Shown: piece by piece, positions 5,636 to 25,140 of the stretch
How the letters are laid out: each line of letters begins with the position of its first letter
Position numbering within the stretch: position 1 is the stretch's first letter
Virus record (IMG/VR): IMGVR_UViG_3300020214_002421
Span: 1 to 33,810 of that record
From: a virus
Length of the DNA stretch: 33,810 nt
Direction: 5' to 3' (one strand)
Position numbers and translations under genes: made by a program
The notes under the pieces: generated by a model
Databases searched by the model: none
The model's input: only the letters and a program-made list of their open reading frames with translations
Told to the model about the DNA's origin: nothing

Positions 5636-6733
5636 TTATTTGGGCTCGCTTTGTAGTCTTTGATTTAAAAGGTCAAAATCTAGATTTTCTAAAAATTTAT
5701 CTACATATGCTTCTCTGTCTGTCTTGTAGTCAAATGCAAAAGCGTGCTCCCAAACATCCAAAACCATAATTGGTACTTGACCAACTATGTGTCCTATGTG
5801 GTGCTCGGTGATCAGAGCGTTTTCTAATCCGTAAATAGGATCGTAAAAAGTAACTACCCATCCATTTCCTGCTGCTAGTGCTGTAGACTTAACATCTTCT
5901 AGATATTCTGCTACACTACCCCACTTGTTTTCTACTAGCTCTTTTAGTTTATCTGCAGGATCTTTATTTTCTTTAGTGGCAAGATGTTCAAAGTATAGCT
6001 CATGAAGTAGTGCTCCGTTGTAGGGAACTGCTAGTCTTCTTTTATATTCGCTATACTTGCCATAGCTGTATCCATTATCTTCTTTATTTATCTCTGATAA
6101 CTCTTTTTGGATTCGATTTAAGGCTTTTACATAACCTTCGTATAGCTTTATGTGAGACTCTATGAGTTCGCTGCTTAAATCGCAGTTGTTGGTGTTTTTA
6201 AGATTAGAAAAGTCTTGGATTGCTTTAAAGGTGGATGCTGCAAGAAGTTTTATGCTTGTAGTTTTATCAGCAAACTTAATAAGTCTACTGAGAGATAAGA
6301 TTGCTGATTTATTTGAATATCTCTTCTTAAGATGTTCAGCAAGAGTTGGTGCAACTGCATTTGCTTCTTGCTCCCAGGGAGCCTCTCCCCATACAGTATC
6401 GAGTGGCCAATACTCTTTATTCCACTCAATCATTGGACCATCATCTGTTTCTACTGCGATATTCTTCAATTTACCTTTACTAAACTGTAGAGCATGGACA
6501 AATTCATGAGCAAGATGGTCCCACTTTTTATCACCTTTATATTTAAAAATATCAAACTTGATCGTAATAATATTGCCGTCCATAGAGCAGTTGGCGAGAG
6601 TATTGTCTTCCTTACCAATGCTCGATAGATTGAACTGTATAGCTTGAGAAATTTTAAATCTCTCTTTGAGATACTGTACAGCATCAAAGAGATCTCTTAT
6701 TTCTTGTTCGGATGGGGGAGAACTTTTAGACAA
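5636..6733 (-). CDS. Fusion of HExxH metallopeptidase-like domain and Fe/Mn superoxide dismutase-like domain
   Basis: 365 aa. The start is TTG at 6733 with SD AAGGA 8 nt upstream, one base after the stop of the preceding small gene; no nearby ATG fits. The N-terminal half has a zincin motif (H76-E77-F-V-H80) and a downstream acidic cluster EQEA (121-124) that could give the third zinc ligand. The C-terminal half, from about 185, resembles Fe/Mn superoxide dismutase. The four expected metal ligands can be placed at H194 (ESH followed by a YVKALN helix), H244 (LLHELYFEHL), D326 and H330 (LDVWEHAFAFDY). The DYKTDREAYV...N tail follows the usual pattern. Standard enzymes are about 190-210 aa without the protease-like half. 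The known family reaction is dismutation of superoxide to peroxide and oxygen. Its place next to capsid genes suggests a virion or late role, by inference. The identity of the zincin half is less sure than that of the dismutase half. Confidence 0.8.
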   Translation of the reverse strand: MSKSSPPSEQEIRDLFDAVQYLKERFKISQAIQFNLSSIGKEDNTLANCSMDGNIITIKFDIFKYKGDKKWDHLAHEFVHALQFSKGKLKNIAVETDDGPMIEWNKEYWPLDTVWGEAPWEQEANAVAPTLAEHLKKRYSNKSAILSLSRLIKFADKTTSIKLLAASTFKAIQDFSNLKNTNNCDLSSELIESHIKLYEGYVKALNRIQKELSEINKEDNGYSYGKYSEYKRRLAVPYNGALLHELYFEHLATKENKDPADKLKELVENKWGSVAEYLEDVKSTALAAGNGWVVTFYDPIYGLENALITEHHIGHIVGQVPIMVLDVWEHAFAFDYKTDREAYVDKFLENLDFDLLNQRLQSEPK

Positions 6734-6734
6734 T

Positions 6735-6935
6735 TCACCAATCCTTTTTTACCATACTTTGTGTACGGATTTTAAACTCTTGAGATTTAGTGGGGTTAGA
6801 TTGAAGCTTAGTACGCTCCTTACGTCTTTCATTCTCAGTAACAGTAGTAGCCTCAATAGGATGAGAGAGTACAATTGCTTGATACTTTTCAGCCTCTGTA
6901 GGTTTAGATTTTTGTGTGCTCATATTCAGGCTCAT
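6735..6935 (-). CDS. Small charged hypothetical protein, about 66 aa
   Basis: The frame starts at ATG 6935, right after the LysM stop codon; a second in-frame ATG at 6923 is equally possible. Neither has a strong SD, so translation is probably coupled to the LysM gene. The product is short, hydrophilic and rich in Lys, Glu, Thr and Arg (for example TENERRKERTKLQS), with no Cys and no membrane segment. It ends in TGA at 6737-6735, and the dismutase fusion begins one base later. I do not recognise it. The tight packing between two genes supports its being real. Confidence 0.55.
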   Translation of the reverse strand: MSLNMSTQKSKPTEAEKYQAIVLSHPIEATTVTENERRKERTKLQSNPTKSQEFKIRTQSMVKKDW

Positions 6936-6936
6936 T

Positions 6937-7515
6937 CTATTTAGTAGATCCAGGTTGGACCCATACTCCACGATATGCATCATATACAGCTGGAGCAGCT
7001 TGTGGAGCAGCTTGTGGAGCAGCTTGTGGAGCAGCTTGTGGAGCAGCTTGTGGAGCAGCTTGTGGAGCAGCTTGTGGAGCAGCTTGTGGAGTAGCTTGTG
7101 GAGCAGCTTGTGGAGCAGCTTGTGGAGCAGCTTGTGGAGCAGCTTGTGGAGCAGCTTGTGGAGCAGCTTGTGGAGCAGCTTGTTGTTGTTGTTGCTGAGT
7201 TAGGACCTTGCTAGGCAATTTAATTACTTGATTTGGAAAAATCAAATTGGGGTTTTTAATATTATTTAATTTTTGTAGATCTTGCCACTTTAAACCATGC
7301 TTTGCAGCAATTCCAGAAAGAGTATCTCCCGGCCTTACAGTATAGCTACTTTCTGAGCTTACTGGAGCAGCTTTTTGTTGTTGTTGGGCTGGAGCTTTCC
7401 CTGGAGCATACGGTACTGCATCTTGTTGAGTTGAAGTTTGAGCCATAATGAGCTTTGCTAAAGTATATTTACCTTGATTGTAAAATTGTTTAGCTATACG
7501 ATATGAAATCTTCAC
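6937..7515 (-). CDS. LysM-domain virion protein with (AAPQ)n tail
   Basis: 192 aa. The start is GTG at 7515 with SD GGAG 6 nt upstream. Residues 5-25 carry the short helical motif [17 protein letters not shown] seen in other proteins here. A single LysM domain spans about 57-100 ([17 protein letters not shown], then [18 protein letters not shown]). LysM domains bind N-acetylglucosamine polymers such as peptidoglycan. A poly-Gln stretch follows, then 16 units of Ala-Ala-Pro-Gln (one Ala-Thr-Pro-Gln), then a short Tyr/Trp-containing end. The Pro/Ala/Gln tail should be an extended, flexible spacer. No catalytic domain is visible, so it is probably a wall-binding or head-surface accessory protein rather than a lysin. 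Confidence 0.8.
6992..7183. repeat. 12-bp minisatellite, 16 units
   Basis: Sixteen uninterrupted copies of ggagcagcttgt (plus-strand reading) span 192 bp. One unit differs by a single base (ggagtagcttgt near 7088). The repeat lies fully inside the LysM gene, and its 12-bp period keeps the reading frame whatever the copy number. The near-perfect identity implies recent expansion or ongoing homogenisation. Confidence 0.97.
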
Positions 7516-7541: not shown

Positions 7542-9059
7542 TCATAAACTATCAAAGAGGTCTCTTACTTCTTCTTCTTCTTGTTGATTGAATACATACT
7601 TAATTTTCCCGCAATCCCAAACTCGCAAGAGTCCGTCCTGTTCGGCATGTTGTGCTTCTGTCATTCCTACTGGTGTTTTAATTTTATTCTTTTGTCTTGA
7701 TTGTTTAGAAATTACCTTAGTACCTTTAAAATAAAAATAGTCTGGGGGTAACTTTTTACTAACTACCCAACCTGCCTTCTCGTATCCATTACCGGTACTT
7801 AGTCGATAGTTAGCCCAAGAAATTATTGGCGTTTTTAGATTTTGAACTGCTAACTTAGTTACTCTGGATAGAATACCTTGAATAGTAAAATTAGTCTTAG
7901 TAGTAAAACGACTCAGAACCCATTCTTGAGAATTTCTATGATGCAGACCAAATGTAGCAGTTGCTACTAGTTCGTCTTTATAATATACATTGGCGGCATA
8001 TCTTGTAGAGTTCGTGTGCCCTTGAATATGAGTTGCATTAAGAAGGTTGTGTGCCTTTTCAATTTCAGATGGTGCCGAGGACCAAATTATGTGGCATTTT
8101 CGAGCACCAATCTTATGTTGATTTTTCTCTAAAGCAGAAAGTAAGAACGATTTTACTTGAGTTTGTTTTTGAAGCCATTCGTGCTCCCAAATGTGTATAA
8201 CTCGAATACCTTGAGACTGAAAGTATTTGGTTTTATTAAGATGGTAAGTTTTACTTTTATTTATCTCAGAATGCCAAAAAAGACCATTGTATTCAATTCC
8301 TAATTTGAGCTCGGGAATGTAAATATCAAGTTCGTGCCCTTGCTGCTTTATTTTAGTGGCTGAAGAATAATATGTCTTAACCCATTCCAGTAGTTCGAGC
8401 TCAGACTTAGACTGTCCATTGTAGCCTGGATTTGACTCACACCATGCTTTTAGTTTATTCCGATTTTCTGGAAGTTGACTATGACTAGCGGCCCCATACC
8501 TTTGAAGGTTACTCTCCTTTGCTTTTTCCTGAAAAACAGGTAGTTTAGCTGGATGTGCTGTCCCGTATAATTTAATATTAGTCTCTAGCACCTTTTGCCT
8601 AATCTCTGGAAGACTAGAAGGATTTTTAGTGCCGTATCTTTCAAGGTTAGTTTTTTCGCGGCGGGCCTTTACCTCAGTCGATTGACATGCGAATTCGGTA
8701 CCATATTTTTCTAAATTGGTTTTTTTAGCTTTCTCTTTAACTTCGGATGCTTGAAATGAGTTGACTATTCCGTTACCGTATTTTTTCTGTAAAGAGTCTA
8801 GTTTCTTAGCTTTAACGTTAGGGTCAAGTGTAGAGCTTTTGACCCCATATTTTTGGAAACACGTCTCTTCTACATATTTAGCTCGCATACAGCCGCATGA
8901 TTTAGAATTACCAAGCTTAATGTCGGTCTTATAGACGAGCTTGGTCGTGTTGTTGCATGCTGTACATTGACATAAAGCCTGTGCCTTTGAGGTCAGCTCA
9001 ATTACTTTCCAGTAATTGAATTGATCTCCTATCTTCATTCTTTTATATGTGCGAGACAA
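7542..9059 (-). CDS. Homing endonuclease-like protein, Vsr/EDxHD-type nuclease (copy 2)
   Basis: 505 aa. TTG at 9059 is the likely start because SD GGAG lies 6 nt before it, while the later in-frame ATG at 9038 has none. The N-terminal zinc-binding segment has paired Cys (CQCTAC, then KSCGC), a form common before phage HNH and related nucleases. Six KYG-type repeats follow to about residue 200. The nuclease core has ELDIYIPELKLGIEYNG, WHSE and HIWEHEW, the same order as the 2285-3829 protein. The C-terminal GNAT-like domain (NGYEKAGW) is shared as well. After the common end KYVF it gains an acidic tail ending VRDLFDSL, which resembles the start of the dismutase fusion protein. It interrupts the row of structural genes between the LysM and the 227-aa protein. 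Confidence 0.85.
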   Translation of the reverse strand: MSRTYKRMKIGDQFNYWKVIELTSKAQALCQCTACNNTTKLVYKTDIKLGNSKSCGCMRAKYVEETCFQKYGVKSSTLDPNVKAKKLDSLQKKYGNGIVNSFQASEVKEKAKKTNLEKYGTEFACQSTEVKARREKTNLERYGTKNPSSLPEIRQKVLETNIKLYGTAHPAKLPVFQEKAKESNLQRYGAASHSQLPENRNKLKAWCESNPGYNGQSKSELELLEWVKTYYSSATKIKQQGHELDIYIPELKLGIEYNGLFWHSEINKSKTYHLNKTKYFQSQGIRVIHIWEHEWLQKQTQVKSFLLSALEKNQHKIGARKCHIIWSSAPSEIEKAHNLLNATHIQGHTNSTRYAANVYYKDELVATATFGLHHRNSQEWVLSRFTTKTNFTIQGILSRVTKLAVQNLKTPIISWANYRLSTGNGYEKAGWVVSKKLPPDYFYFKGTKVISKQSRQKNKIKTPVGMTEAQHAEQDGLLRVWDCGKIKYVFNQQEEEEVRDLFDSL

Positions 9060-9068
9060 AATATACTC

Positions 9069-9752
9069 CTATAGCCACATGAACATAAGTTCATTACTAA
9101 CAGAGGTAGAGGGTTGTAGAGCAATTGCAACCATAGGTGAGCCAGTCTCTTGAGCGGTAAGTTTTCCTTCTACATCTACGAATAGGGGGCTGCCTGGTTG
9201 GTACACAGTTAGAGTGTCGAAGACGTTGGTGGTAAAAATACCGCGATTGAAATGAATTGAGATTTGACCAGAACCATCGGTAGTATCTGCACCAGGAAAG
9301 TCTACAATCTTAAATCGATAGGAAGATATTACCTCAAACCCCATAACTCCTGTTCCAGTATCTTCGTAATTTAGTGGGGTGCCTGCAGGTATTATGAATG
9401 TACCCTTTTTAGGGTTAAGTACAATTCCAATGTTGGCAGTGAAGCTACTCTCAATTATGTTAGTCTCTATAAGAGAGCCCATTACGTCGACTGAGCTAAC
9501 TAAAGTGCCGTTGACATTGGTTGGAGTAGCTGGAACAATCTGGATCTCGTCTATACTAGTTCCAGTAAAAGCTTTGACTTTATTGTCGTCGATAACCCCA
9601 ATAGGGGGAATGGAGGTTCCGTTGGAGACAGTGATGAATAGTTCACCGTTTATTTCGATGAGGCCTGCGATCTGACCAGCTTCAAAGGTTGCTGAAGGGT
9701 CGACTGGTGCTGACCATACTAACGGATTAGCTAGAACTGGGCGTAGTATCAT
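9069..9752 (-). CDS. Probable virion structural (decoration-type) protein
   Basis: 227 aa, ATG at 9752 with AGGA 9 nt upstream. The start overlaps the last 26 bases of the upstream endonuclease gene. The protein is beta-rich with many Thr, Ser, Val and Ile, no Cys, and two blocks of typical virion style: FEAGQIAGLIEINGELF at the N-terminus and a C-terminal segment YQPGSPLFVDVEGKLTAQ ending in FMWL. The pattern of a placed LFV..G.LT followed by a short hydrophobic C-terminus is seen in phage head or decoration proteins that I recall as uncharacterised. Role inferred from this and from its neighbours. Confidence 0.65.
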   Translation of the reverse strand: MILRPVLANPLVWSAPVDPSATFEAGQIAGLIEINGELFITVSNGTSIPPIGVIDDNKVKAFTGTSIDEIQIVPATPTNVNGTLVSSVDVMGSLIETNIIESSFTANIGIVLNPKKGTFIIPAGTPLNYEDTGTGVMGFEVISSYRFKIVDFPGADTTDGSGQISIHFNRGIFTTNVFDTLTVYQPGSPLFVDVEGKLTAQETGSPMVAIALQPSTSVSNELMFMWL

Positions 9753-11346
9753 TACTTAATTCCTTAAGGTACTTAGCTTGACCTGCATCGTAGATCTTGA
9801 ACCATTTCTTTTCAGCTGCATAGTATGCTTCTGATTGTTTGCGTTCATCCATGTTTGCACGACATTGCCTACGATTGAAGGTTCGCTTAAAGTCTGTCCA
9901 TACAAAGCCAGAAGTATCAATATAAGCTAGCTTAAACCCACATTTTATGTATGATTCTCCTGATGCATATCTAAGATCGCAAAAGCTTTCTACGAGAGAG
10001 GGATTATATATTTTTATAACATGATTCAATAATTTAGAGAAACCGCCACGGACGGTTGAGTTCTGTTTACTACAAAATCTCTCGATACTTATTTTATTTT
10101 GAATTTTACGAATCGATATTGCGGCAACTAATTCGGCATCTAGAAATAATCCATAACACGAAGCGCCTAGCTTGTTTCCCATTAGGTGGTTTTCATTAAA
10201 AAATTTAGAGCTCTCTGATTGAGATAGAGTTTTAATTTTACAAGATCTAGCATTAAGCTTAAGTGTAAGACCAAAATAATTGAGAATAGTAGATTTGATT
10301 AGATGTGGTTTAGATTCTAATTCATCAGCTCTGAACTGCATGATTCTTAGGTTGTGTTTTACAAACTCGCTAGCTAAATTAGAGTGGTAGCTTTTATTTA
10401 GATTTCTTCTTCCACCTACCGAGTGGTCGTATAATCCGTCTATGTTGATGTATAGGATTTTGCCATTTTTTTCTAAACGAAAATCAGGTCGATAGCTTAA
10501 ATTAGCCTCTAATGGTTTTTGGTCAAATTTTTGTATGTCACAAAAAACATCCTTAAATAGACTAATGAAGCATGCCTCAGTAGAGTAAATATTGTTCTGG
10601 TAGTTGTCGATATATTCTAGAGTTGCAGAGGGGCCAAAGTTAGCATGTATTTTATGTAAAGTGCTAATTGGTACTTGTTTTTGCTTGGCGGCATCGGTTA
10701 AGCATTGACCTGAAGGAAGAATTGTTTTGCGATTGTTCGCTATAAGAAATTCTTGGAAATGTTCCGACTGAGAGTGATTTTCGGTGCCGTATCTAGAGAG
10801 ATTCGTTTTTTTCATTTTATCTTGACATTCCGGCAATTTTGCATAGTTCTCAACTCCGTACTTTGCTAGATTAGTGCTAAGAGTTTTTTGTTTTTTATGC
10901 TCTGTTTGAGCAATGTTTTCGACTTGATAGCGTTCTTGAATAGTTTTAGTACGTTTTTCATTTGAGAGCTGTTTTTGCTCTGGAGAATGATTCTGTTGAG
11001 ATTGAGATATCTTTGCACGAACCGATGAAGATTGTGAGGGGTGAGGATTATTATACTTTAATAAAGAGGTTTGTGTTCTTTTTTGAGTGATCTCATTAAG
11101 CTTCAGCTTTCTCTCTTCAGATTGAGCATAGTTCGGTGTACCATATTTTTGGATACATGTTTGTTGAGTAGATTGTAACTTTTGACAACCACAGGAGCTA
11201 GAACGACCCAATGCTAGGTTTCTATGAAGAACTTCGCGGTGAGTAGTGTTGCAGCCAGTGCAGAAGCAGAGAGACTTTCTACCTCTTACCTCTACGACTA
11301 GCCAGTATCCAAAAAGTGTACCTGAGGTTATTTTACTTTTAGCCAT
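9727..11346 (-). CDS. Homing endonuclease-like protein, divergent third copy
   Basis: 539 aa, ATG at 11346; no strong SD. N-terminal zinc-binding segment with CFCTGC and SSCGC, then at least five KYG/RYG-type repeats up to about residue 200. A short helix-turn-helix-like stretch (AAKQKQVPISTLHKIH) follows. The nuclease region differs from the other two copies: YRPDFRLEKNGKILYINIDG and LYDH replace the LGIEYNG and WHSE blocks, so the core acid is Asp instead of Glu, and a later HNLRIMQFRADEL takes the place of HIFEHEW. This looks like a PD-(D/E)XK/Vsr-related fold. The C-terminal GNAT-like domain (SGESYIKCGF) is shared with the other two. Its last bases overlap the start of the 227-aa structural gene. 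Confidence 0.8.
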   Translation of the reverse strand: MAKSKITSGTLFGYWLVVEVRGRKSLCFCTGCNTTHREVLHRNLALGRSSSCGCQKLQSTQQTCIQKYGTPNYAQSEERKLKLNEITQKRTQTSLLKYNNPHPSQSSSVRAKISQSQQNHSPEQKQLSNEKRTKTIQERYQVENIAQTEHKKQKTLSTNLAKYGVENYAKLPECQDKMKKTNLSRYGTENHSQSEHFQEFLIANNRKTILPSGQCLTDAAKQKQVPISTLHKIHANFGPSATLEYIDNYQNNIYSTEACFISLFKDVFCDIQKFDQKPLEANLSYRPDFRLEKNGKILYINIDGLYDHSVGGRRNLNKSYHSNLASEFVKHNLRIMQFRADELESKPHLIKSTILNYFGLTLKLNARSCKIKTLSQSESSKFFNENHLMGNKLGASCYGLFLDAELVAAISIRKIQNKISIERFCSKQNSTVRGGFSKLLNHVIKIYNPSLVESFCDLRYASGESYIKCGFKLAYIDTSGFVWTDFKRTFNRRQCRANMDERKQSEAYYAAEKKWFKIYDAGQAKYLKELSNDTTPSSS

Positions 11347-11384
11347 TTTATGGAAATAAAACTATACAGAATAATGTCTGTGTA

Positions 11385-12077
11385 TTAATCTGTGATGGAA
11401 CGAAGTGTGCGATTGATATGAGATCTTGCGTGTTTGATGGTAGCAGTCTTATCAGTTGGTTGTTCTTCTTCTTTAAAGAATTCAACTCTATCTCTTCCTT
11501 TGTTTTTAGCCATGTAGAGAGCTTTATCGGCGTCAGATTCGGTATTGCCTACACCTAAGGAAGCTTTTAAGGGAGTATTATTAAGTTTTTGTTTAAGTTC
11601 TTGATCGTCGCCATTATAAAAATTGCCAATGTTCTGATTGTGAATACTTTCTAGAATTCGTTTAGCAATAATTACACCTACACTGACAGTGGCGTCTTCA
11701 ATATGAACAATAAATTCATCTCCACCATATCTAGAAACACTCGCCTTATCTTTAGAGCGAAGAGCATTTCTAATGCCGTTTGCGGTTGCTAAAATAGCAG
11801 CAGTACCTGCGGCATGACCTAGCGCATCGTTTAATTTCTTTAAGCCATCAGAATCTATAAAAATATAGACTCCTTTGTCTTTTTCCCTACTTTGAAACTC
11901 TTCTTTATGTTCAAAGCCTGTGAGAAAATCTTGACGAATCTTCTCAAGAAGCTGTCTTATGTAGCTAAGATAAGCCTTCTCTCTATCTGTTTTTGCAAAT
12001 CTTAGTTCTTGAGGAAGCTCTGGGATCAGATACTTGTGCTCTTGAGCGCTCTTGCTAAATTTTTGATGTAGCGAAAT
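11385..12077 (-). CDS. GGDEF diguanylate cyclase domain protein without a standard start codon
   Basis: The frame is open from 12092 to TAA at 11387-11385 (235 codons). Numbering from a possible ATT start at 12077 gives 230 aa. The domain is complete: QDFLTGFEHKEEF opens it, FIDSDGLKKLNDALGH holds the metal-binding Asp (D75), RYGGDEF (active-site GGDEF at 118-122) is intact, and the end has the expected SLGVG, then DADKALYMAKNKGRDRV. The usual GD after GH..  is GT here. An RxxD lies upstream of GGDEF but two residues out of the normal inhibitory-site register. The family joins two GTP into cyclic di-GMP. No in-frame ATG, GTG or TTG lies before the domain. The options are ATT with a weak AAAGAG, or a +1 shift from the ferritin-like gene, whose stop (12084-12082) lies inside the open frame. 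Confidence 0.8.
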   Translation of the reverse strand: MSLHQKFSKSAQEHKYLIPELPQELRFAKTDREKAYLSYIRQLLEKIRQDFLTGFEHKEEFQSREKDKGVYIFIDSDGLKKLNDALGHAAGTAAILATANGIRNALRSKDKASVSRYGGDEFIVHIEDATVSVGVIIAKRILESIHNQNIGNFYNGDDQELKQKLNNTPLKASLGVGNTESDADKALYMAKNKGRDRVEFFKEEEQPTDKTATIKHARSHINRTLRSITD

Positions 12078-12081
12078 GTTA

Positions 12082-12597
12082 TCACTCTTTTCTTAAGAGA
12101 AGTTGCAAGTCGTGAGCGTGCTCTACTTCTTTAGCTAACAGATTTTCTATGTCAATTTTTAGCGCTGAAGATGGTCGACTATCCAGTACTTGGAGGATTT
12201 GTTGATATGTCTTAACGGCTTCTTTTTCAAACTTAAGCTGAAGAGCGATGATTTGCTCAATTTCAAGACTTTCAAGGTTCGGAATAGGAAGACGTTTAAC
12301 TGTAGGTCTATGCCCCATACCAACAATATATCTTTGTAAGAGATCTATATGATCTGCTTCGTCTCCTGCGTGATCAGCAAAGTGATCTGCAATAGGATCT
12401 CTTGAAAGCCCCATAAGTAAGGCCTTGTACGCATAGTATAAATCCCACTGTTGGAATTCGGCCATTAAGGCTTCTTGTAAAAGAGGAACTACGTCTTCGT
12501 CTTCTTTCATAACAAGTTCTAGATCTATTTCTTTAGTCTCTGGACCCATTACAAGTTGCGCAGTTTTGATCGCTAATCTAGCTATTTGAAATTTCAT
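12082..12597 (-). CDS. Ferritin-like di-iron protein
   Basis: 171 aa from ATG at 12597, chosen because GGGAG lies just upstream; a TTG 27 nt earlier would put the SD inside the gene. Four-helix bundle with ferritin/bacterioferritin-type iron ligands: E47 in helix A, E80 with H83 (EADH) in helix B, E124 or E126 in helix C, and E157 with H160 (EVEH) in helix D. The typical segment GHRPTVKRLPIP links helices B and C. The family binds and oxidises iron, either storing it or protecting DNA; whether this member forms a cage cannot be seen. It sits directly after the protease/scaffold gene, and its stop overlaps the GGDEF frame, so the two may be expressed as a pair. Confidence 0.85.
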   Translation of the reverse strand: MKFQIARLAIKTAQLVMGPETKEIDLELVMKEDEDVVPLLQEALMAEFQQWDLYYAYKALLMGLSRDPIADHFADHAGDEADHIDLLQRYIVGMGHRPTVKRLPIPNLESLEIEQIIALQLKFEKEAVKTYQQILQVLDSRPSSALKIDIENLLAKEVEHAHDLQLLLRKE

Positions 12598-12672: not shown

Positions 12673-14835
12673 TTAGTGCCAAGGAAGTTTAGATAGTTCA
12701 CCAACAAAAGTTTCACGAACAGTAGTTTCGGCGTCTTCTGCTGTACGAACACCTACATTAATTGCACCGGCAGTACGAACTTGTGATTTAGCAGGAGCTG
12801 ATGCTGCAGCTTTTACAGGTTTTGTGTTTTCTACAACTGAAGCAAATGCTGTGAATTGATCGTCGTCAAGGCGCATTAGACGATCAACGTCAGACTCAAC
12901 GGCAGCTTGGCTATTTTCAATTTGACCAAGACTTGCGCGTCTCATTGCAAGAGCAAAAGCTCGCTTCATTCTCATGCCGTAGTTGTGGACAGCAACAGTG
13001 CTTGCTTTTTTGGTTGAGAAGTCTTCGGTTAGCTCTTTGTAGAACTTAGCTACTTCCGCGTCTGGTTTGGTGCCAGTTGCAGACTCGCTTGCGAGTTCTG
13101 CATAGTATTGTTTAGTTTCTTTATCGACTTCGGCGACTTTGGTTGCTGCAGTTGCAGGAGTTTTTGCTGTTTGTGCTGCGGCTTTAGCAGCATCAGTAAC
13201 TTTTTTCTTAGCCGCTTGTGCAGCCTCGTTTGCTGCTTTTTCAACTTCAGCTTCTGCCGAGCGTACTAGACGAGCACGTTGTTGTTGACGCGCTGTAAGT
13301 TCACCACGAGGAGTTGATTGTGCTACTTCAACATCAGCTTCTTGCGCTTCAGTAACAGTTTCAACTTTGCCTTGTGGTTGGCCTGGGAAAGTAGTTGTGT
13401 TTCCACCTTCTGGATGAGCTTCAGCAATCATGTCACCATCAGTAAGATTGTAAAGTTCTGAAGCTAGTTTACGACGAGCTGCGCGGCGAGCCATGATATC
13501 TTTCATAGAGGCTTTTTTCTCTTTTTTATCTTGCTCTTCGTGCCACTCTCTGAGAGCTTTAGGCATGTTTTCGTATTTATCTTCCGAATCTTCATCGTCA
13601 TCTTTAGCTTCTTTATCCATCATCTTGAAAGCATCTTTCATGGCTGCTGCACCAGCAGGGTCCATTTGTTGTGCTTTCTTTTTCATTTCAGGTTTTTTTG
13701 CTTTCTTTTTATCATCTTTTTTATGTTTTTTAGCAGCTTGAATTTCAATAAATTCTTCTGCTTCTTCTAGTAGTTTATCAGCATGAGTTAAAGCATAGCG
13801 AGTTAATCCACGAAGAGCAGCTGCTTGAGCAGGAGTTTTTGGAGCTGCCATTTCAGCGCCTAGCTCACCAAGTTCGCTACCAGCTTCTGCTAGATCGGTT
13901 GCCAGAGCTTCGCCTTCTTCGGAGCCACCTAGATCATCTACAACAGAAACAATTTGAGCAACAGCTTCTTCGATTTGATCAGCAGCTGAGCGAATAGCTT
14001 CGGCAGCTTGCATTTCATCAGCTTCATCTGCGGGAGCTTCTGGAGCAGGAGCAGCCTCTGCTGCTGGAGCGGCTGGTGCTGGGGCACCCATATCAGGAGC
14101 TGGGACAGCTTGAGCTGTAACAGTTCTACTTGCAGCGTCAATTTCTGCAGCAACTTTAGTTAGTCCGTAACTCTTAATAGCCTTGATAAGATTGATTCCA
14201 TATGGTTTAGAAGCAAACCACTCAAAGTTTGTAATTGGTTTTTCAGTGTCTAGACCTTCAGCAACTTTGGTTAGATCAGAACCATAAGCTTGGTCAGCTG
14301 TAACTGAGAGGACTTTTTCATCGCCGGCAAACACATCCCAGCGATATTCGCCAGTGCTTGCAGCTTTTTCTAGACGTGCACGAAGTTTTGCGCGAAGAAG
14401 TTGTTTCTTAACATCTTCATCGGAGCCCATGCCATAACCTGGAGCTAGACCTTCAGAGCCGCTCTCCATACCTTGGCCAACCATGTGTTTGTCTTCTTCC
14501 CAATGTTGGTGATAGTCTTTATCAGACATTTCGAAGACTTTGTCTTCTGGCTCGGCTGTACCTTGCATGTAAGCAAGACGTTCAAGAATTTGTTTGCGCC
14601 ATGCTTTACGTTGTTGTGCACTTGCACGTTGATACATTTTCTTAACATCTTCATCGGAGCCCATGCCATAACCTGGAGCTAGACCTTCAGAGCCGCTCTC
14701 CATACCTTGGCCAACCATGTGTTTGTCTTCTTCCCAATGTTGGTGATAGTCTTTATCAGACATTTCGAAGACTTTGTCTTCTGGCTCGGCTGTACCTTGC
14801 ATGTAAGCCTTTTTGTCCTGCTTCTTCTGGGTCAT
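12673..14835 (-). CDS. Nested scaffold product from internal in-frame start (720 aa)
   Basis: ATG at 14835 (Met 367 of the fusion) is preceded by a perfect GGAGG with 7 nt spacing, stronger than the SD of the full gene. The product keeps the frame and lacks the protease and most of the coiled coil. It contains the tandem 57-residue copies, the acidic and Ala-rich helical parts and the C-terminal end. Phage lambda makes scaffold Nu3 from a start inside its protease gene C; this arrangement has the same logic, giving many scaffold copies per protease. The start is seen in the sequence; use of it is inferred. Confidence 0.7.
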   Translation of the reverse strand: MTQKKQDKKAYMQGTAEPEDKVFEMSDKDYHQHWEEDKHMVGQGMESGSEGLAPGYGMGSDEDVKKMYQRASAQQRKAWRKQILERLAYMQGTAEPEDKVFEMSDKDYHQHWEEDKHMVGQGMESGSEGLAPGYGMGSDEDVKKQLLRAKLRARLEKAASTGEYRWDVFAGDEKVLSVTADQAYGSDLTKVAEGLDTEKPITNFEWFASKPYGINLIKAIKSYGLTKVAAEIDAASRTVTAQAVPAPDMGAPAPAAPAAEAAPAPEAPADEADEMQAAEAIRSAADQIEEAVAQIVSVVDDLGGSEEGEALATDLAEAGSELGELGAEMAAPKTPAQAAALRGLTRYALTHADKLLEEAEEFIEIQAAKKHKKDDKKKAKKPEMKKKAQQMDPAGAAAMKDAFKMMDKEAKDDDEDSEDKYENMPKALREWHEEQDKKEKKASMKDIMARRAARRKLASELYNLTDGDMIAEAHPEGGNTTTFPGQPQGKVETVTEAQEADVEVAQSTPRGELTARQQQRARLVRSAEAEVEKAANEAAQAAKKKVTDAAKAAAQTAKTPATAATKVAEVDKETKQYYAELASESATGTKPDAEVAKFYKELTEDFSTKKASTVAVHNYGMRMKRAFALAMRRASLGQIENSQAAVESDVDRLMRLDDDQFTAFASVVENTKPVKAAASAPAKSQVRTAGAINVGVRTAEDAETTVRETFVGELSKLPWH

Positions 14836-15933
14836 TTGATTGCCTCCAATTTTAACTTTTTGATCTATTTTTTGATCTAACTGTTTAAGTTGCTGTTCTA
14901 ATTTTTGAATTCTATCTGAAAGATCTTTAGCATTATCTGCTGTAGATTCGGTGATATCTGTATCGAGACGGTGTTCGAGGTCTTCTACTTCGCTCTCGAT
15001 TCTATTAATACTGTCTGTAATCAATTGATTTTCTGGTTCTGAAGTCGTTGTTTCGTGATTTTGAGCTTGACGAATTCGATTTAGGGACGCTAAAATGGTT
15101 CTAATCTTAGCTCGAGGATCTGCTCCATTTGTAACCATTGAGATCTCAATAAAATTGAGACCGTTGTTTACTTCGTATACCTTTCGATTGCCGGCGCGAG
15201 CAATTCCCTTACCACTCTTAACGTGTGTACAGTAATCGTTTTCAGTAATTGCCTTATTGCCACACTCCGAGCAAAGACTGTGGGAAACTTGACATCCCAT
15301 CGAGACATCGGTAGAATAACCAGCAGTCACTTGCCTAGCTAGTTCTGGATAAGCAACCTTATCTAAAGCAATAAGAAGATCAACACCTTTAGATTTTGGA
15401 TCGTAAGCGGCGTCAAGAATAATACCACGAATGTTCTCAACTTGACCTGATTTGTGGTCAGTAAAAAGGCCACGGCCAATGAATGTTTGGTAAGCTTGTA
15501 TTTTACGAGAAGGGTTTTGTGGATCTACTGTCTCGGCGAGTAGTTCGCTTTCAGAAAAAGCGTCGCCATTTTGGTTTATAAATGGTTCTACAGTAGAGGC
15601 CTTACACCACATACCGGAAAGAGCTTCACCACGGGTACCTTTAAATAGTTCTACTTCGCAGGTTTTGCATTTGCCATGACCATTGTCATAGGCTATATGA
15701 CCTATTTTAGGATTGAACTCTCGAGAAACTGGATCAATCGCAGCAGCTTCCATAGCGTGGATGCCACGAGCAACAAAGTATAGAAAATCTTCAGAGCGAG
15801 GTGCCACGCGGCGGATCTCGGCGGTTAGAGTTCTGAACCTGTCAGTAATGATCTCTGACTGAAGAGCTCTTTCAGCGGTAAGAATTTTACTTGAATCAAC
15901 ATTAATAGTAGCATTAGCAAACTTCTTTAGCAT
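12673..15933 (-). CDS. Prohead maturation protease fused to scaffold
   Basis: 1086 aa, ATG at 15933 with AAGGGG 5 nt upstream. Residues 1-285 look like a phage head maturation protease: LFTDH with H160, then a segment ending STDVSMGC (S207/S211 candidate nucleophiles), and a closing FIEISMVTNGADPRA. CKTC at 89-92 and CSEC at 221-224 with C235/H237 could bind zinc. Residues 300-365 are a coiled coil. The rest is scaffold-like: acidic, Ala/Glu/Lys-rich and low in complexity, with an exact 57-residue duplication (about 375-510), a folded patch near 515-590, an Ala/Pro hinge and long helical stretches. The last residues (GELSKLPWH) may contact the capsid. A start with a strong SD inside the gene (14835) should also give a 720-aa scaffold-only product. 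The family logic is that protease cuts scaffold and capsid during head maturation. Confidence 0.8.
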   Translation of the reverse strand: MLKKFANATINVDSSKILTAERALQSEIITDRFRTLTAEIRRVAPRSEDFLYFVARGIHAMEAAAIDPVSREFNPKIGHIAYDNGHGKCKTCEVELFKGTRGEALSGMWCKASTVEPFINQNGDAFSESELLAETVDPQNPSRKIQAYQTFIGRGLFTDHKSGQVENIRGIILDAAYDPKSKGVDLLIALDKVAYPELARQVTAGYSTDVSMGCQVSHSLCSECGNKAITENDYCTHVKSGKGIARAGNRKVYEVNNGLNFIEISMVTNGADPRAKIRTILASLNRIRQAQNHETTTSEPENQLITDSINRIESEVEDLEHRLDTDITESTADNAKDLSDRIQKLEQQLKQLDQKIDQKVKIGGNQMTQKKQDKKAYMQGTAEPEDKVFEMSDKDYHQHWEEDKHMVGQGMESGSEGLAPGYGMGSDEDVKKMYQRASAQQRKAWRKQILERLAYMQGTAEPEDKVFEMSDKDYHQHWEEDKHMVGQGMESGSEGLAPGYGMGSDEDVKKQLLRAKLRARLEKAASTGEYRWDVFAGDEKVLSVTADQAYGSDLTKVAEGLDTEKPITNFEWFASKPYGINLIKAIKSYGLTKVAAEIDAASRTVTAQAVPAPDMGAPAPAAPAAEAAPAPEAPADEADEMQAAEAIRSAADQIEEAVAQIVSVVDDLGGSEEGEALATDLAEAGSELGELGAEMAAPKTPAQAAALRGLTRYALTHADKLLEEAEEFIEIQAAKKHKKDDKKKAKKPEMKKKAQQMDPAGAAAMKDAFKMMDKEAKDDDEDSEDKYENMPKALREWHEEQDKKEKKASMKDIMARRAARRKLASELYNLTDGDMIAEAHPEGGNTTTFPGQPQGKVETVTEAQEADVEVAQSTPRGELTARQQQRARLVRSAEAEVEKAANEAAQAAKKKVTDAAKAAAQTAKTPATAATKVAEVDKETKQYYAELASESATGTKPDAEVAKFYKELTEDFSTKKASTVAVHNYGMRMKRAFALAMRRASLGQIENSQAAVESDVDRLMRLDDDQFTAFASVVENTKPVKAAASAPAKSQVRTAGAINVGVRTAEDAETTVRETFVGELSKLPWH
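13608..13677. repeat. 70-bp exact direct repeat, copy A
   Basis: Identical over 70 bp to 24728-24797 and read in the same frame in both genes. It encodes the segment KAQQMDPAGAAAMKDAFKMM plus flanking residues. Here it lies in the scaffold part of the protease fusion. Confidence 0.95.
14404..14574. repeat. 171-bp exact direct repeat, downstream copy
   Basis: Matches 14638-14808 base for base, 234 bp apart start to start, with 63 bp of unique sequence between. Both copies are in the scaffold part and keep the frame (57 codons each, 78-codon period). Confidence 0.96.
14638..14808. repeat. 171-bp exact direct repeat, upstream copy
   Basis: Partner of 14404-14574. It encodes the first 57-residue unit (MQGTAEPEDKVFEMSDKD... 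through ...GMGSDEDVKK), beginning 11 codons after the internal scaffold start. The absence of any silent difference implies a recent duplication or gene conversion. Confidence 0.96.
14833..14847 (-). promoter_or_regulatory. Internal ribosome binding site for the nested scaffold
   Basis: GGAGG (minus strand, 14847-14843), 7 nt, then ATG (14835-14833). It lies in coding sequence for Lys-Ile-Gly-Gly-Asn-Gln-Met. The five-base anti-SD match and ideal spacing are unlikely to be needed for the encoded residues alone. Confidence 0.75.
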
Positions 15934-15942
15934 AAAAACCCC

Positions 15943-16821
15943 TTAGTCAAATTTAAAGCGTAGTTTATCACCAGCTTTATCAAAAATGCTGTGAGCTACG
16001 TCTTTGTATTTTTTATGAGCGTCAAGATACTGTTTTGCGCGATGAGCATGCTCTAGTGCTTTTTGAAAACGCTCTTTAGTTGTTTTATCTGCAAGACGCC
16101 ATTTCATATTGTTGACGCGGTCTTGAAGATCGTCAATCGATACTTCATCGCATTCAGGCTCTTGTGAAGGCTCTTCTAGGTCAGGATCAACAATCTCGAG
16201 ATGTTCTTGAGCATCTACTTCTTGTTCTGGTTCCCATGAATCTTCTGATTCAGAATCCCATTCATCTTGATCCACTAATTCATCGTCCCAGGAGTCCCAT
16301 TCGCCTAGTTGAGCTTGCTTGAGTAAGGATTCTAGGATTTGATCTGCTTCTTTAGCGAGCGTTGGATCTTCTAGATCTAACTTATTGGCAACTTCAACTA
16401 GAGAATCCACAACGCTATGTAGATTTGTAGGAGTATCCTGCGATGATGTAGCAATAACTCGAAGACCTTCAGCAGCTAGTATTTTGTTGTAAAAGAAGCT
16501 AATTAGAGCGGTAGGTGTACTAACTAGGGCTAGTTCTGCTAGGTTTTGAAGTTTCTTTTTAGGAGAAAATTGATCGGAAGTTTCTATAATAGACTGGACA
16601 GCGTCTTTAGCTGTGTTGAACTCTTCTATGGTAGATTTTCTATTTAGACTTTCTACTAAAAGCTGAGTCTCTTTGCGCTTAAGAAGCGCACTCTCAAAAG
16701 GATTGTGAGTGTCAGAGTCTTCTTCTGCTTGTTTTGTTAGGTTAGCTAGTCTAGTAGCAACTTTAGGATTCTTATCGGTAAAGTGCTCTATGAGATTAGT
16801 TAGATTTAGCTTTGTCGTCAT
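15943..16821 (-). CDS. Acidic head-associated hypothetical protein
   Basis: 292 aa. ATG at 16821 is preferred over an upstream TTG (16830) because GGAGAGG lies 9 nt before the ATG and would abut the TTG. The protein is helical. Residues about 140-170 carry VANKLDLEDPTLAKEADQIL, a version of a short motif found in several neighbours. A strongly acidic Asp/Glu/Trp stretch (about 175-225) follows, and then a basic helical C-terminus (AHRAKQYLDAHKKYKD). No catalytic motif is visible. It starts inside the end of the 47-aa gene and stops 9 nt before the protease/scaffold start, so all three are probably translated together. A core or scaffold accessory role is possible. Confidence 0.7.
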   Translation of the reverse strand: MTTKLNLTNLIEHFTDKNPKVATRLANLTKQAEEDSDTHNPFESALLKRKETQLLVESLNRKSTIEEFNTAKDAVQSIIETSDQFSPKKKLQNLAELALVSTPTALISFFYNKILAAEGLRVIATSSQDTPTNLHSVVDSLVEVANKLDLEDPTLAKEADQILESLLKQAQLGEWDSWDDELVDQDEWDSESEDSWEPEQEVDAQEHLEIVDPDLEEPSQEPECDEVSIDDLQDRVNNMKWRLADKTTKERFQKALEHAHRAKQYLDAHKKYKDVAHSIFDKAGDKLRFKFD

Positions 16822-16939
16822 TAGTATCAACCTCTCCTTGTTCTGCCTTTTTAGTTTGTGCTTCTAATGCATTAGAAGCATCTTCAGGGGCAATAACATT
16901 AACTGCATTTAGTGTTGCTTTAACAATTTTTTTTAACAT
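16796..16939 (-). CDS. Small 47-aa protein overlapping the next gene
   Basis: ATG at 16939 with an AGAGG 5 nt upstream, stop TAA at 16798-16796. The N-terminus MLKKIVKATLNAVNVIAP is basic and amphipathic; the remainder is hydrophilic (Lys, Glu, Asp, Asn). Its 3' end overlaps the start of the 292-aa gene by 26 nt in another frame and carries that gene's SD, so translation is probably coupled. MLKK also begins the protease fusion protein. I do not recognise it; the SD and the overlap are the support. Confidence 0.55.
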   Translation of the reverse strand: MLKKIVKATLNAVNVIAPEDASNALEAQTKKAEQGEVDTNDDKAKSN

Positions 16940-16948
16940 AAAAACCTC

Positions 16949-17599
16949 TTATCTTAAATCAATAAGGCTTGAATGAGCTATTTGTTCAGATGTTGATTGG
17001 AGTACATTTGAGAATGTATTCTGCAATGCTCGGGCGCGGCGTACTACTGGATTTAGCTCGGAAAGTCCGCCATCATATTGTCTCTTTAGAGACTCGCACA
17101 AAACTACTAAAGGATCGAAGAAGTTGCCTTTATCTACTTTTAGTTTTAAAGGAGTAGGTCGAAATGCTAAAGAGCGTTCTATTTCGTCTTCTTTTCTTTT
17201 GAGGGTGCCGCTAAAAGTTTGAAGATCGTCGTTATCTACTTCAGTAGGCTTATTTCGTAGCACTGCCTCAAATACTAGTATAAATTGATCGAAGGCGGAA
17301 AGGATTGCTCTTATATTGTCAGTACCAAGATATTCAAATTGAATTAGGTGATCATCATAAAGCTGTTTAAGTTTTTTAAACTTTAAAAATAAAGTTCTTG
17401 CTATTGTATATTTTGCATCGAGTGTGGTGTCGGGAGATGGTAATGTGGGAATAGGTGGTGACGGAGCTGGAACTGGAGAAGGAGGAGCTACTTGAGCGTA
17501 TTTTGATAAAACTCGATCAACAATGTCGGCTTGATGATATAAGCCAAGACGATCTAGTTCATCTGCAATAGATTTGAGTGTATACAAAGAGTTCATCAT
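16949..17599 (-). CDS. Helical hypothetical protein, portal-adjacent
   Basis: 216 aa from ATG at 17599 (a second ATG follows at 17596; a TTG at 17617 is also possible; none has a good SD). The N-terminus MNSLYTLKSIADELDRLGLYHQADIVDRVLSKYAQ is the clearest copy of a motif shared by several head-region proteins here. A Pro-rich linker (about 40-62) follows, then a long helical domain with many Leu, Phe and Lys/Glu, ending IAHSSLIDLR. No catalytic residues are evident. It lies between portal and scaffold-type genes, so a head-completion, core or packaging accessory role is plausible but unproven. Confidence 0.7.
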   Translation of the reverse strand: MMNSLYTLKSIADELDRLGLYHQADIVDRVLSKYAQVAPPSPVPAPSPPIPTLPSPDTTLDAKYTIARTLFLKFKKLKQLYDDHLIQFEYLGTDNIRAILSAFDQFILVFEAVLRNKPTEVDNDDLQTFSGTLKRKEDEIERSLAFRPTPLKLKVDKGNFFDPLVVLCESLKRQYDGGLSELNPVVRRARALQNTFSNVLQSTSEQIAHSSLIDLR

Positions 17600-17638
17600 A
17601 TGAAATAAAATAATCAATACAACTTTTTTGAGGTTTTA

Positions 17639-19424: not shown

Positions 19425-20003
19425 TTATTTATTAAGAAATTTAGCTGCTTCAAGAAGATTATCGAAGTTCTTAGTGTAAGAATCTCCAGTAGCCTTATTT
19501 TGCACTACAAGTGTGACACGTACTGAGTCGTCTTTTTGAGAGATCATCAATTCCTTAAAGAAGTCGGCGTCATCTAAGCGAACTGAGGTCTGAGAATGTT
19601 GTTTAACGAGTTTATTTTCACATGCGGTTAGAGAGTTGGCTGCTTTAACCTTGCCGGACTTGTATAATCTGCTCGCCACTGTGTGAAGTCTAGCTAGGGA
19701 GCTGGCATTAATAATTGTTGGCATTTTATTATAAAATTGTTTTACAGCTTCAATTCTTTCAGATCGCGACTTAGAGTGTAATTCATTAAAGGATGGATCT
19801 GGAGCAGATAGGGTTTGTAGTAAATTGTCGTAACTTTGAGGGCTTAAGTTTGGAGTATTAATATCTTGAGATGACGATGGAAGAGGAGAAGCGCTAGATG
19901 AAGAGTTATTTGTACTCATCCAATCTTTATCTGAAAGATATGTATCAAACGAAGTTAATTCGTTATCAAGTGCTAACCACATATCATCAAAATGCTTGGT
20001 CAT
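19425..20003 (-). CDS. Hypothetical protein before the portal
   Basis: 192 aa, ATG at 20003 with AGGA very close upstream (3 nt). Ser/Asn/Pro-rich from about 30 to 60. Helical in the middle, with SLARLHTVASRLYKSGKVKAANSLTACENKL, a looser copy of the short motif seen in neighbouring proteins. The C-terminus is a beta-alpha segment with VRVTLVVQNKATGDSYTKNFDNLLEAAKFL. No known enzyme motif. It begins five bases after the LysM/HicA-like gene stops and lies before the portal. It may be a portal- or neck-associated protein; this is inference from position. Confidence 0.65.
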   Translation of the reverse strand: MTKHFDDMWLALDNELTSFDTYLSDKDWMSTNNSSSSASPLPSSSQDINTPNLSPQSYDNLLQTLSAPDPSFNELHSKSRSERIEAVKQFYNKMPTIINASSLARLHTVASRLYKSGKVKAANSLTACENKLVKQHSQTSVRLDDADFFKELMISQKDDSVRVTLVVQNKATGDSYTKNFDNLLEAAKFLNK

Positions 20004-20008
20004 AGTTC

Positions 20009-21013
20009 CTATCTCAACTTAAGTTGAAGCCCTGGATAAATAAGATTGGGGCTAGTAAATTTCTTCTGCTTACCTGAACTATCGGTATATGATTTATTCT
20101 TATTTAATTCCCATAACTTTTTCCAGGTGGTGTTGTGCTTTTGAGCTATAGTTGATAACATATCGCCTGGTCTTACAGTATAAGAATTAGATTTACTAGG
20201 TGTAGCGTTAGGTGTTTGGTAACTACTCGATGAGGAATCTGTGGAGGTAGCAGGAGGCGATACTGGAGTCTGGGAAATAGTAGAAGGTAACTCAGTATTA
20301 GGAGTGATTTCTGGAGTTGCCGATGCTTTACTGTCTTCGGTACTATTAGTAATAGGTTGAGTTACTTTCCAGCTAGCTCCAGGAGAGCTTTTATTGTTAC
20401 CTGCATTAGCGGCGGAACCGCCAGTTCCTGATTGTTCAAATTGAAAATTTTTGAAAAGTTTTTGAGTATCTGAATCTATTTCAAAGCTAGTTGTAATTGA
20501 CTCAGGAGTAGGCTCTTCATTAGAAGAGTTATTATTGGCGTCTTGTAAGGTTTTATTTAACTGTGTTGCATCCAGTAGGGCTGTGGGATCTACGCCTTTC
20601 GTTGGAATGTTAGGAATAGTAGTTACTTTAGGTATAATTGGAGTATTGGGGGCAAAGTTCCTCCACCAACTCTGAGCTGTCTTTGTGAAGTTCCCTTCTA
20701 CGGTTGCTAAAGCTTTTAGAACCGACAGCCTAGCCTTTGCTATATTCTGAATTGATCGACGAGGACTAATATTTGAAACTTTTTTAGGAGAAGTGGGTGC
20801 TGGAGGTGGTGCATCTGTTTCTTGTAGAAGCTTCTTCCTATTAAGATCGTCGGCTTCTCTTAGGAGACGAAGAGCGAGAAATTTGTGAAGCTCAACGTGA
20901 CGAGGAATAGGCATAGTATAGGTTCCGTTTCCCCATATTTCATGGGGGCCTTTGTCTCGAACCTTAAACCAACCTAATTTGGATAATTCTCTTAAAAAAT
21001 CACGCTTTTTCAC
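20009..21013 (-). CDS. HicA-like domain joined to LysM domain by a long linker
   Basis: 334 aa. GTG at 21013 with AAGGTG 4 nt upstream. Residues 1-60 resemble the HicA toxin fold (dsRBD-like mRNA interferase): LRELSKLGWFKVRDKGPHEIW, then TYTMPIPRHVELHKFLALRLLREA. H24 in KGPHE may match the catalytic His of the HicA G-S-H motif. Residues 65-275 are Ser/Thr/Pro/Asn-rich and probably disordered. The LysM domain spans about 277-334 (YTVRPGDMLSTIAQKH, then SPNLIYPGLQLKL) and should bind peptidoglycan. No HicB antitoxin is nearby. It lies between the nuclease-type gene and the portal group. The LysM call is firm; the HicA call is by pattern and could be a structural adaptation without RNase activity. 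Confidence 0.75.
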   Translation of the reverse strand: MKKRDFLRELSKLGWFKVRDKGPHEIWGNGTYTMPIPRHVELHKFLALRLLREADDLNRKKLLQETDAPPPAPTSPKKVSNISPRRSIQNIAKARLSVLKALATVEGNFTKTAQSWWRNFAPNTPIIPKVTTIPNIPTKGVDPTALLDATQLNKTLQDANNNSSNEEPTPESITTSFEIDSDTQKLFKNFQFEQSGTGGSAANAGNNKSSPGASWKVTQPITNSTEDSKASATPEITPNTELPSTISQTPVSPPATSTDSSSSSYQTPNATPSKSNSYTVRPGDMLSTIAQKHNTTWKKLWELNKNKSYTDSSGKQKKFTSPNLIYPGLQLKLR

Positions 21014-21056
21014 AAGGCACCTTCAACGTTGACATCTTAATACTAATATTACACAA

Positions 21057-22169
21057 TCAATACTTGATAAAAGAGCCTAATAGCTCGAAGAGTCTTTGAT
21101 CTGAGAGGTCGCATTTATCGTTATTATTGTGAATTTCGATAAATTTAATATCTTTAAGATTGTTATAGAATTGTTGCTTAGCCTTTATTTTATTAGCATA
21201 CATTTCATTAACACCGCTGTTTTCGCGATCGCCGATGGAACCGAAGACTTCGACTATGGCGATAGGTAGCTCGTTGCTAGTTAACACAAAGTCTGGTACA
21301 ACATTTGGAAAATCTTTGGATTGTGTTGGTAACTTATCTCCTAGTTTTGGAATTATGTATGGGATACGATATCTATCTAAAAACTTTTTCACTCGAATTT
21401 CTTCCGTTGAAAGCTTGAGTCTTGTCTTATCTTGATTATAATAAGCAATGTATTCAGGAGCTATTGTGCAAACAAGTTCGGGATAAGACTTAATTGAGCC
21501 ATCCTCAATAAATTTCTTAATTACATCTTTGAAGCTTTCTAGCTTACGATTGAGACCTAGTACGTGCCCGTATAAATCATAGTGATTACTCAAAAAAGGA
21601 AGTGTTAAGGGAAAATCACATTTGTGTAGTAGATCTAAGATAGATCTTATCTCATCTAAAGACCATGTATGCCTTTTTTTATGGCCAAACTTAACATACT
21701 CAAGTGCCTCTTCTAAAGAGTTAATTGGATCAGTTGTGTCTATTGTATTGCTGAGGTCTCGCCTATATCCTACTGAGAGTATTGCTTCAGCAATGGCGTG
21801 ATCTAGAGATTTAAACCACTCGCGGTGCTTAGGTGCTGAAGGTGGACATACTTTTAAAATTGTAAAGCATAATTGAGTTGGAAGCGAGGACTTATTCATA
21901 TTGTGTCCTACAAGATATAACTCTTTTAATCTTGCTAGCACATTTTCACGAGACCACTTAAGTCGCTTGAACGATTGTAGTAATTCATCGTTGCGATACA
22001 TTCTAATTAGTTTTCGTTGAACTTCAGATGGTTTTCTTTGTAGAGTTTTAGCTATAGTTTCCCATAGTTGTTTATGAGATTGATTATGCTCTCTGCCGGT
22101 AATAAACATATCTCGAAGAATTTCTTCTTCTTGTTTTGTCCATCTACGGTAAGCATAGTGATAAATCAT
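21057..22169 (-). CDS. Myb/SANT-like DNA-binding protein with PD-(D/E)XK nuclease domain
   Basis: 370 aa. ATG at 22169 overlaps the terminase stop by one base (TAATG), so translation is coupled. Residues 8-62 form a Myb/SANT-like helix-turn-helix (RRWTKQEEEILRDMF, then WETIAKTLQRKPSEVQRKL). A second WS..EI repeat occurs at about 168. The C-terminal part has a nuclease pattern: E256/E257 helix, VPDFVL with D293, AIVEVFG with E307, and K327/K329. This matches a PD-(D/E)XK core. Such proteins in phages are often homing endonucleases or related DNA-modifying accessory genes. The coupling to the large terminase also allows a packaging role (for example in place of a small terminase subunit), which I consider less likely. 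Confidence 0.7.
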   Translation of the reverse strand: MIYHYAYRRWTKQEEEILRDMFITGREHNQSHKQLWETIAKTLQRKPSEVQRKLIRMYRNDELLQSFKRLKWSRENVLARLKELYLVGHNMNKSSLPTQLCFTILKVCPPSAPKHREWFKSLDHAIAEAILSVGYRRDLSNTIDTTDPINSLEEALEYVKFGHKKRHTWSLDEIRSILDLLHKCDFPLTLPFLSNHYDLYGHVLGLNRKLESFKDVIKKFIEDGSIKSYPELVCTIAPEYIAYYNQDKTRLKLSTEEIRVKKFLDRYRIPYIIPKLGDKLPTQSKDFPNVVPDFVLTSNELPIAIVEVFGSIGDRENSGVNEMYANKIKAKQQFYNNLKDIKFIEIHNNNDKCDLSDQRLFELLGSFIKY

Positions 22170-25106: not shown

Positions 25107-25140
25107 TATTGATGCTCCTTTGCAAGGGTAGAATATGTTT

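Follow-up and report, generated by a model that had tools for sequence, protein, structure and literature searches.

On the reverse strand of a viral DNA stretch lies an open frame that encodes a GGDEF domain and has no usual start codon ahead of it. Three questions follow: whether the frame is a gene, where its translation would begin, and which cyclic dinucleotide its product would make. The window, by which we mean the whole stretch of 33,810 bases analysed here, is an IMG/VR virus record, so the phage origin assumed in the original prediction is right. Terminase, portal, head-protease and major capsid protein families are found in it, and its major capsid protein is 53% identical to that of Bacillus phage G. 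The window holds head and packaging genes of a large, phage-G-like tailed phage. Sequence comparisons support the view that the GGDEF frame is a genuine, conserved, stand-alone gene in this head module, with intact catalytic residues.

An intact GGDEF domain

11385-12092, reverse strand: open frame of the GGDEF protein, 235 codons from stop to stop (Pfam GGDEF, AlphaFold model, PDB matches)
11712-11726, reverse strand: GGDEF catalytic motif (Gly-Gly-Asp-Glu-Phe), with Asp, not Glu, in third place
11853-11855, reverse strand: metal-binding Asp of the FIDSDGLKKLND motif (PleD Asp327), from sequence and alignment

The frame is bounded by TAA codons at 12095-12093 and 11387-11385, and it stayed open in none of 2000 mononucleotide shuffles. 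A frame scan agrees with the original prediction that no ATG, GTG or TTG stands ahead of the GGDEF motif; the sole such codon in the frame is an ATG at codon 193, far 3' of the motif. The domain was also rightly described as complete, with RYGGDEF at 11732-11712 and the metal-binding Asp codon at 11855-11853. It scores 65.2 bits against Pfam GGDEF (PF00990; curated cut-off 23.8, E=7.6e-18) and 75.9 against NCBIfam TIGR00254 (cut-off 37.4), and has a PHROG match too. Its Pfam score for mCpol is weak and under the cut-off, and a defence-system profile library gave no match to the protein. All catalytic residues are kept (D62, N70, R103, GGDEF at 105-109, K178 and R182, in the numbering of the alignment with the ortholog described below), and GGDEF, D62 and the phosphate-contacting K178 and R182 are present in the window protein and ortholog alike. 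In the AlphaFold model, pLDDT exceeds 90 for the greater part of the GGDEF core. Its matches to GGDEF structures in the PDB reach E 6e-11 and include a construct of Geobacter GacA (6d9m) at E 8.6e-10. An RxxD motif (RSKD/RGSD) lies 7 residues before GGDEF in both phage proteins. The canonical allosteric site lies 5 before, so this inhibitory-site motif is shifted by two residues. These features are best explained by a protein of ~215-230 amino acids that consists of a helical N-terminal stalk and a GGDEF domain, without a sensor domain.

Conservation in a sister phage

A first peptide scan with the single window protein returned no viral relative. A DNA search with the motif K..ND..GH..GT located an ortholog, L093, on a phage contig of 50,356 bases (IMGVR_UViG_3300049846_003297). 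The pattern GHAAGTAA occurs in 49 stretches, and GGDEF is encoded only in this one. Identity to the window protein is 59% over 193 amino acids by tblastn and 55% over the alignment; no close bacterial relative was found, only generic GGDEF proteins at 27-29%.

11388-12038, reverse strand: part homologous to the ortholog (L093; L102 positions 11230-11928), 217 amino acids, with residue 1 being the His of HKYLIPELP

The ortholog starts at a plain ATG preceded by AGAGGA (Shine-Dalgarno pairing -5.8 kcal/mol) and has tail and virion-type genes as neighbours. It retains the GGDEF residues, the loss of which in all relatives would, according to the original prediction, have weakened the case for an enzyme. 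Differences between the two genes number 75, 57 and 140 at codon positions 1, 2 and 3, and dN is 0.41 with dS saturated, which indicates purifying selection on the GGDEF gene. These data bear on the idea that the gene is decaying or silent, having lost its ATG and making no product, or that its protein is a sponge that binds cyclic nucleotides without synthesis. The frame does have no standard start, CAA where the ortholog has ATG, and weak Shine-Dalgarno pairing, but 235 codons without a stop, the full set of catalytic residues and a strong third-position excess of changes make this idea improbable. The gene is accessory, because a GGDEF domain is absent from all 50 virus records related by their capsid or ferritin gene, many of which are fragments. 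In the 16 relatives examined for the slot between the head protease and the ORF9069 homolog, this slot mostly holds an unrelated acidic helix-rich gene.

Relationship with the ferritin-like gene

12082-12597, reverse strand: separate ferritin-like gene upstream of GGDEF, with an ATG and a strong Shine-Dalgarno sequence (Pfam Ferritin, 50 bits)

The ferritin-like gene ends at TGA 12084-12082, inside the GGDEF frame and one base out, as first described. It had been proposed that a +1 frameshift near AGAAAAGAGTGA would join the two into a ferritin-GGDEF fusion. The frames do touch one base apart, and one can imagine a slip from AAA to AAG. Comparison of the gene boundary in relatives, which had been suggested as a check, argues otherwise: the ortholog is free-standing with its own ATG, no ferritin homolog was found in the 40 kb read of the sister contig, and the record of the closest viral ferritin lacks a GGDEF. 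Homology also stops at the ortholog's start codon, ~15 codons past the proposed junction, so that conservation begins there and not at the ferritin junction. For these three reasons the fusion is not supported, and we consider it highly improbable. The two domains lie in different frames in the window and their homologs occur separately, and they were not found as one chain. A rare frameshift product would be compatible with the sequence.

The ferritin relative just mentioned (L002, 8001-8431; 59% identical) is the only other viral one found. Its match is split over two frames, with the switch near 8342-8354, which raises the possibility of a broken gene or an assembly error.

Candidate start codons

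12083-12085, reverse strand: GTG overlapping the ferritin stop (GTGA), in the third frame, with TGA after 19 codons; Shine-Dalgarno -1.4 kcal/mol
12075-12077, reverse strand: candidate ATT start, 4 nt past the ferritin stop; weak Shine-Dalgarno, -2.4 kcal/mol
12056-12062, reverse strand: A AAT TTA heptamer in the GTG frame, where a -1 slip would enter the GGDEF frame
12042-12044, reverse strand: CAA codon aligned with the ortholog's ATG, four codons ahead of the first conserved Tyr
12027-12029, reverse strand: possible CTG start, five codons past the ortholog's ATG position; weak Shine-Dalgarno, -2.1 kcal/mol

Translation of the GGDEF protein may begin at ATT 12077, at CTG 12029, or at GTG 12085 followed by a -1 slip or a one-base indel, all of which fit the sequence. 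The rare ATT start of the original prediction is thus possible, with an in-frame ATT 4 nt after the ferritin stop; the GTG that overlaps this stop had been missed. At other starts in the phage, 12 of 14 tested pair with the Shine-Dalgarno complement at -3.9 to -10.6 kcal/mol. Upstream of CAA 12044-12042 no homology to the sister contig is evident, and promoter-like sites that could serve the GGDEF gene alone are not above chance level.

If ribosomes started at the GTG, they would reach the GGDEF frame by a -1 slip at 12062-12056 or through a one-base difference in the A-run at 12064-12060, arising from assembly or mutation, and the protein would gain a leader peptide before its stalk. Phage genes often join through a GTGA overlap, and a -1 slip at the heptamer would carry ribosomes from the GTG frame precisely into that of GGDEF. 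Such a heptamer is, however, not rare in an AT-rich stretch, and RNA downstream of it folds like shuffled sequence (z -0.59). The ortholog has a simple ATG, and the GTG has the weakest Shine-Dalgarno pairing of the three candidates. We therefore regard this route as possible but doubtful; it concerns the start only and is compatible with either reading of the enzyme discussed below. Given the short distance from the ferritin stop, and since the reading frame need not change, we lean towards reinitiation at ATT or CTG after the ferritin-like gene. Since the sister phage gene has a normal start, the missing start codon is probably a local quirk of modest interest.

The base-selectivity site

11802-11804, reverse strand: Thr codon at the base-selectivity site (PleD Asp344, GacA Ser347/348), within GHAAGT, from alignment and literature

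Ordinary diguanylate cyclases contact guanine at its Watson-Crick face through an Asp at this site (PleD Asp344; GHxxGD). Thr stands there in both phage proteins, that of the window and its ortholog, which are 55-59% identical. According to the account in PMC9140294, enzymes of the Hypr subclass have Ser or Thr at this position, use both ATP and GTP, and make 3',3'-cGAMP; they represent 0.17% of GGDEF domains there. According to PMC6456294, natural Ser/Thr enzymes carry GGDE[F/Y] exclusively and never GGEEF, a pairing explained by the inactivity of Ser combined with GGEEF. Both phage proteins combine Thr with GGDEF. As far as PMC6456294 and PMC9140294 describe them, detailed Hypr assays concern Ser enzymes, with Thr named as a Hypr variant. 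Our own counts give 5 Thr sites in 198 Desulfobacterota genomes, all five with GGDEF; Asp was counted 124 times in a subset of 20 of these genomes, which places Thr at roughly 0.4% by extrapolation.

A second position also differs. The NRR that usually follows the DxLTG motif is HKE in both phage proteins, with both Arg replaced, so the Arg that stacks across the dimer is absent whichever Arg is meant. One NRR Arg stacks on the base across the dimer; it is replaced in cGAMP-rich Hypr enzymes, although this is not obligatory, and enzymes that keep it make more c-di-GMP. A Lys at the stacking position has no tested precedent.

With the guanine-selecting Asp replaced by Thr and the motif being GGDEF, the enzyme is likely to accept ATP as well as GTP. 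The original prediction that this enzyme makes c-di-GMP fares well as regards catalysis, for which the residues are intact, but the product is doubtful because the residue that reads guanine is Thr. A mixture of cGAMP with c-di-GMP (or c-di-AMP) is a better prediction for the same reason. An ordinary diguanylate cyclase, in which Thr tolerates GTP and the c-di-GMP produced changes host motility or biofilm formation, is nevertheless to be weighed. PMC6456294 describes an Asp-to-Ser mutant with GGDEF (GSU3350) that is active solely as a diguanylate cyclase; the phage proteins keep the sugar-face Asn, and their stacking-site Lys may favour guanine as Arg does. Natural Ser/Thr enzymes of the class nonetheless use ATP and GTP in the accounts of PMC9140294 and PMC6456294, canonical phage GGDEF proteins keep Asp, and Thr has been retained in both phage proteins despite differences at 45% of their residues. 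We therefore judge an ordinary diguanylate cyclase to be unlikely. The specificity residue makes it plausible that the gene encodes a phage-borne Hypr GGDEF enzyme.

Asp is kept in all six named phage GGDEF proteins compared (phage G gp350, Yuavirus AN14, MP1412, Churro, Bordetella CN2 and Pseudomonas Y11). A GGDEF domain within a 2239-amino-acid phage protein (L087) has Thr (GHxxGT) with SGDEF. The literature searched holds no report of a phage Hypr GGDEF or of a phage GGDEF with a cGAMP-type residue. A 2017 study of polyvalent phage proteins with GGDEF domains suggested that phages may make signal nucleotides (PMC5512222).

Separately, a stand-alone viral GGDEF protein of 149 amino acids (L169, 209-670 in reverse-strand coordinates) has Ser (GHNAGS) with GGDEF and is a candidate for another viral Hypr enzyme.

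Proposed function and significance

The reading that we favour, and to which we give even odds on the basis of sequence and structure prediction, is that a phage-G-like phage carries a stand-alone Hypr-type cyclase gene, translated by reinitiation at ATT or CTG and expressed late, whose product makes cGAMP together with c-di-GMP and/or c-di-AMP. Having terminated at the ferritin stop, ribosomes would start again shortly afterwards, at ATT 12077 or CTG 12029. The gene's position suggests that the protein would be made late, with the head proteins. The enzyme might be carried in the particle, as first suggested; no packaging signal was found on it, although one giant phage protein (L087) has a GGDEF domain that shares its signature. 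Lacking a sensor, the cyclase would be active wherever it is dimerised, and it would take ATP and GTP to form 3',3'-cGAMP with c-di-GMP and/or c-di-AMP. A rise of cGAMP and c-di-GMP in the infected cell could then reprogramme or confuse the cyclic-dinucleotide signalling of the host; host physiology might be redirected, or pathways that read similar nucleotides might be disturbed.

cGAMP is a rare housekeeping signal of bacteria and one alarm molecule of bacterial anti-phage immunity. Phages are known to clear such signals by means of sponges and phosphodiesterases. We suggest tentatively, and with somewhat less than even confidence, that some large tailed phages have their own Hypr-type cyclase and use 3',3'-cGAMP as a deliberate signal that hijacks a host cGAMP pathway or jams cyclic-dinucleotide immunity. 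If this is true, phages write, and do not only erase, cyclic-dinucleotide messengers. If cGAMP is made, a single residue of one small protein would allow a direct test of whether phages actively send cyclic-dinucleotide signals.

Other genes of the window and the sister phage

Several further features of the two phages deserve mention in their own right. A protein encoded at 5636-6748 (reverse strand) carries an Fe/Mn superoxide dismutase domain at its C-terminus (Pfam, 73 bits), and its N-terminal half contains an HExxH-like motif (HLAHEFVHALQF). Together with the ferritin, this makes two redox/iron-type proteins encoded close to the capsid gene; no match to it was found in the major capsid protein relatives that were searched. 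A helical-hairpin motif of ~32 residues (e.g. LLKELVKIANELDLEGATEEANEIDAVITAEVK) recurs in the otherwise unrelated proteins of 24297-25139, 16949-17635 and 15943-16863 (reverse strand), with similar stretches in relatives L008 and L011 used as search seeds. This motif may serve as a common tag for assembly or packaging, and it is absent from both GGDEF proteins. Three large free-standing endonuclease-like genes (DUF7487; 2285-3829, 7542-9068 and 9727-11346, reverse strand) are scattered in the head module. Two of them also have similarity to the MTES_1575 nuclease, one of the three lies directly after the GGDEF gene, and similar genes occur in the sister phage (G051). The head-protease protein (12673-15933, reverse strand) has an internal duplication, with AYMQGTAEPEDKVFEMSDKDYHQHWEEDKHMVGQGMESGSEGLAPGYGMGSDEDVKK present twice, and has KKAQQMDPAGAAAMKDAFKMMDKE in common with the open frame at 24297-25106. 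A LysM protein at 6937-7200 (reverse strand) has a C-terminal part formed by a long QAAP tandem repeat, which also produces long open stretches in other frames.

On the sister contig, Pfam identifies a PRPP synthetase and a cytidylyltransferase-NUDIX protein (L102, 15997-16950 and 18580-19623), and the product of 19921-21297 in the joined L102/L103 resembles nicotinamide phosphoribosyltransferase by eye. This set is possibly an NAD-rebuilding pathway of the kind used against NAD-depleting defence.

Comparison with known systems

The window protein has its GGDEF fold in common with characterised Hypr enzymes (Geobacter GacA/GSU1658 and Gmet_1914; Bdellovibrio Bd0367). Like them, it has Ser/Thr in place of PleD Asp344, the motif GGDEF, and a replaced Arg pair near DxLTG. 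It differs from them in being phage-encoded, in having no Rec or other sensor domain, in having Thr rather than Ser, in the Lys-Glu at the two usual Arg places, and in an RxxD displaced by two residues. GGDEF domains of polyvalent proteins (PMC5512222) and of L087 are phage-borne too, and L087 shares the GHxxGT signature; these, however, are domains of giant multidomain proteins, whereas the window GGDEF is a small separate gene in the head module. Stand-alone GGDEF genes also occur in other tailed phages, namely the Yuavirus/Vojvodinavirus group (MP1412, AN14, Churro and CN2) and phage G (gp350), but these have Asp at the selectivity site and other gene neighbourhoods, and the Yuavirus group has SGDEF/AGDEF. 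The mCpol enzyme OptS of the Panoptes defence system (PMC12657218) has a related palm-domain cyclase fold. In OptS the GGDEF motif is nearly absent, and it is a host defence enzyme that makes 2',3'-c-di-AMP and related products.
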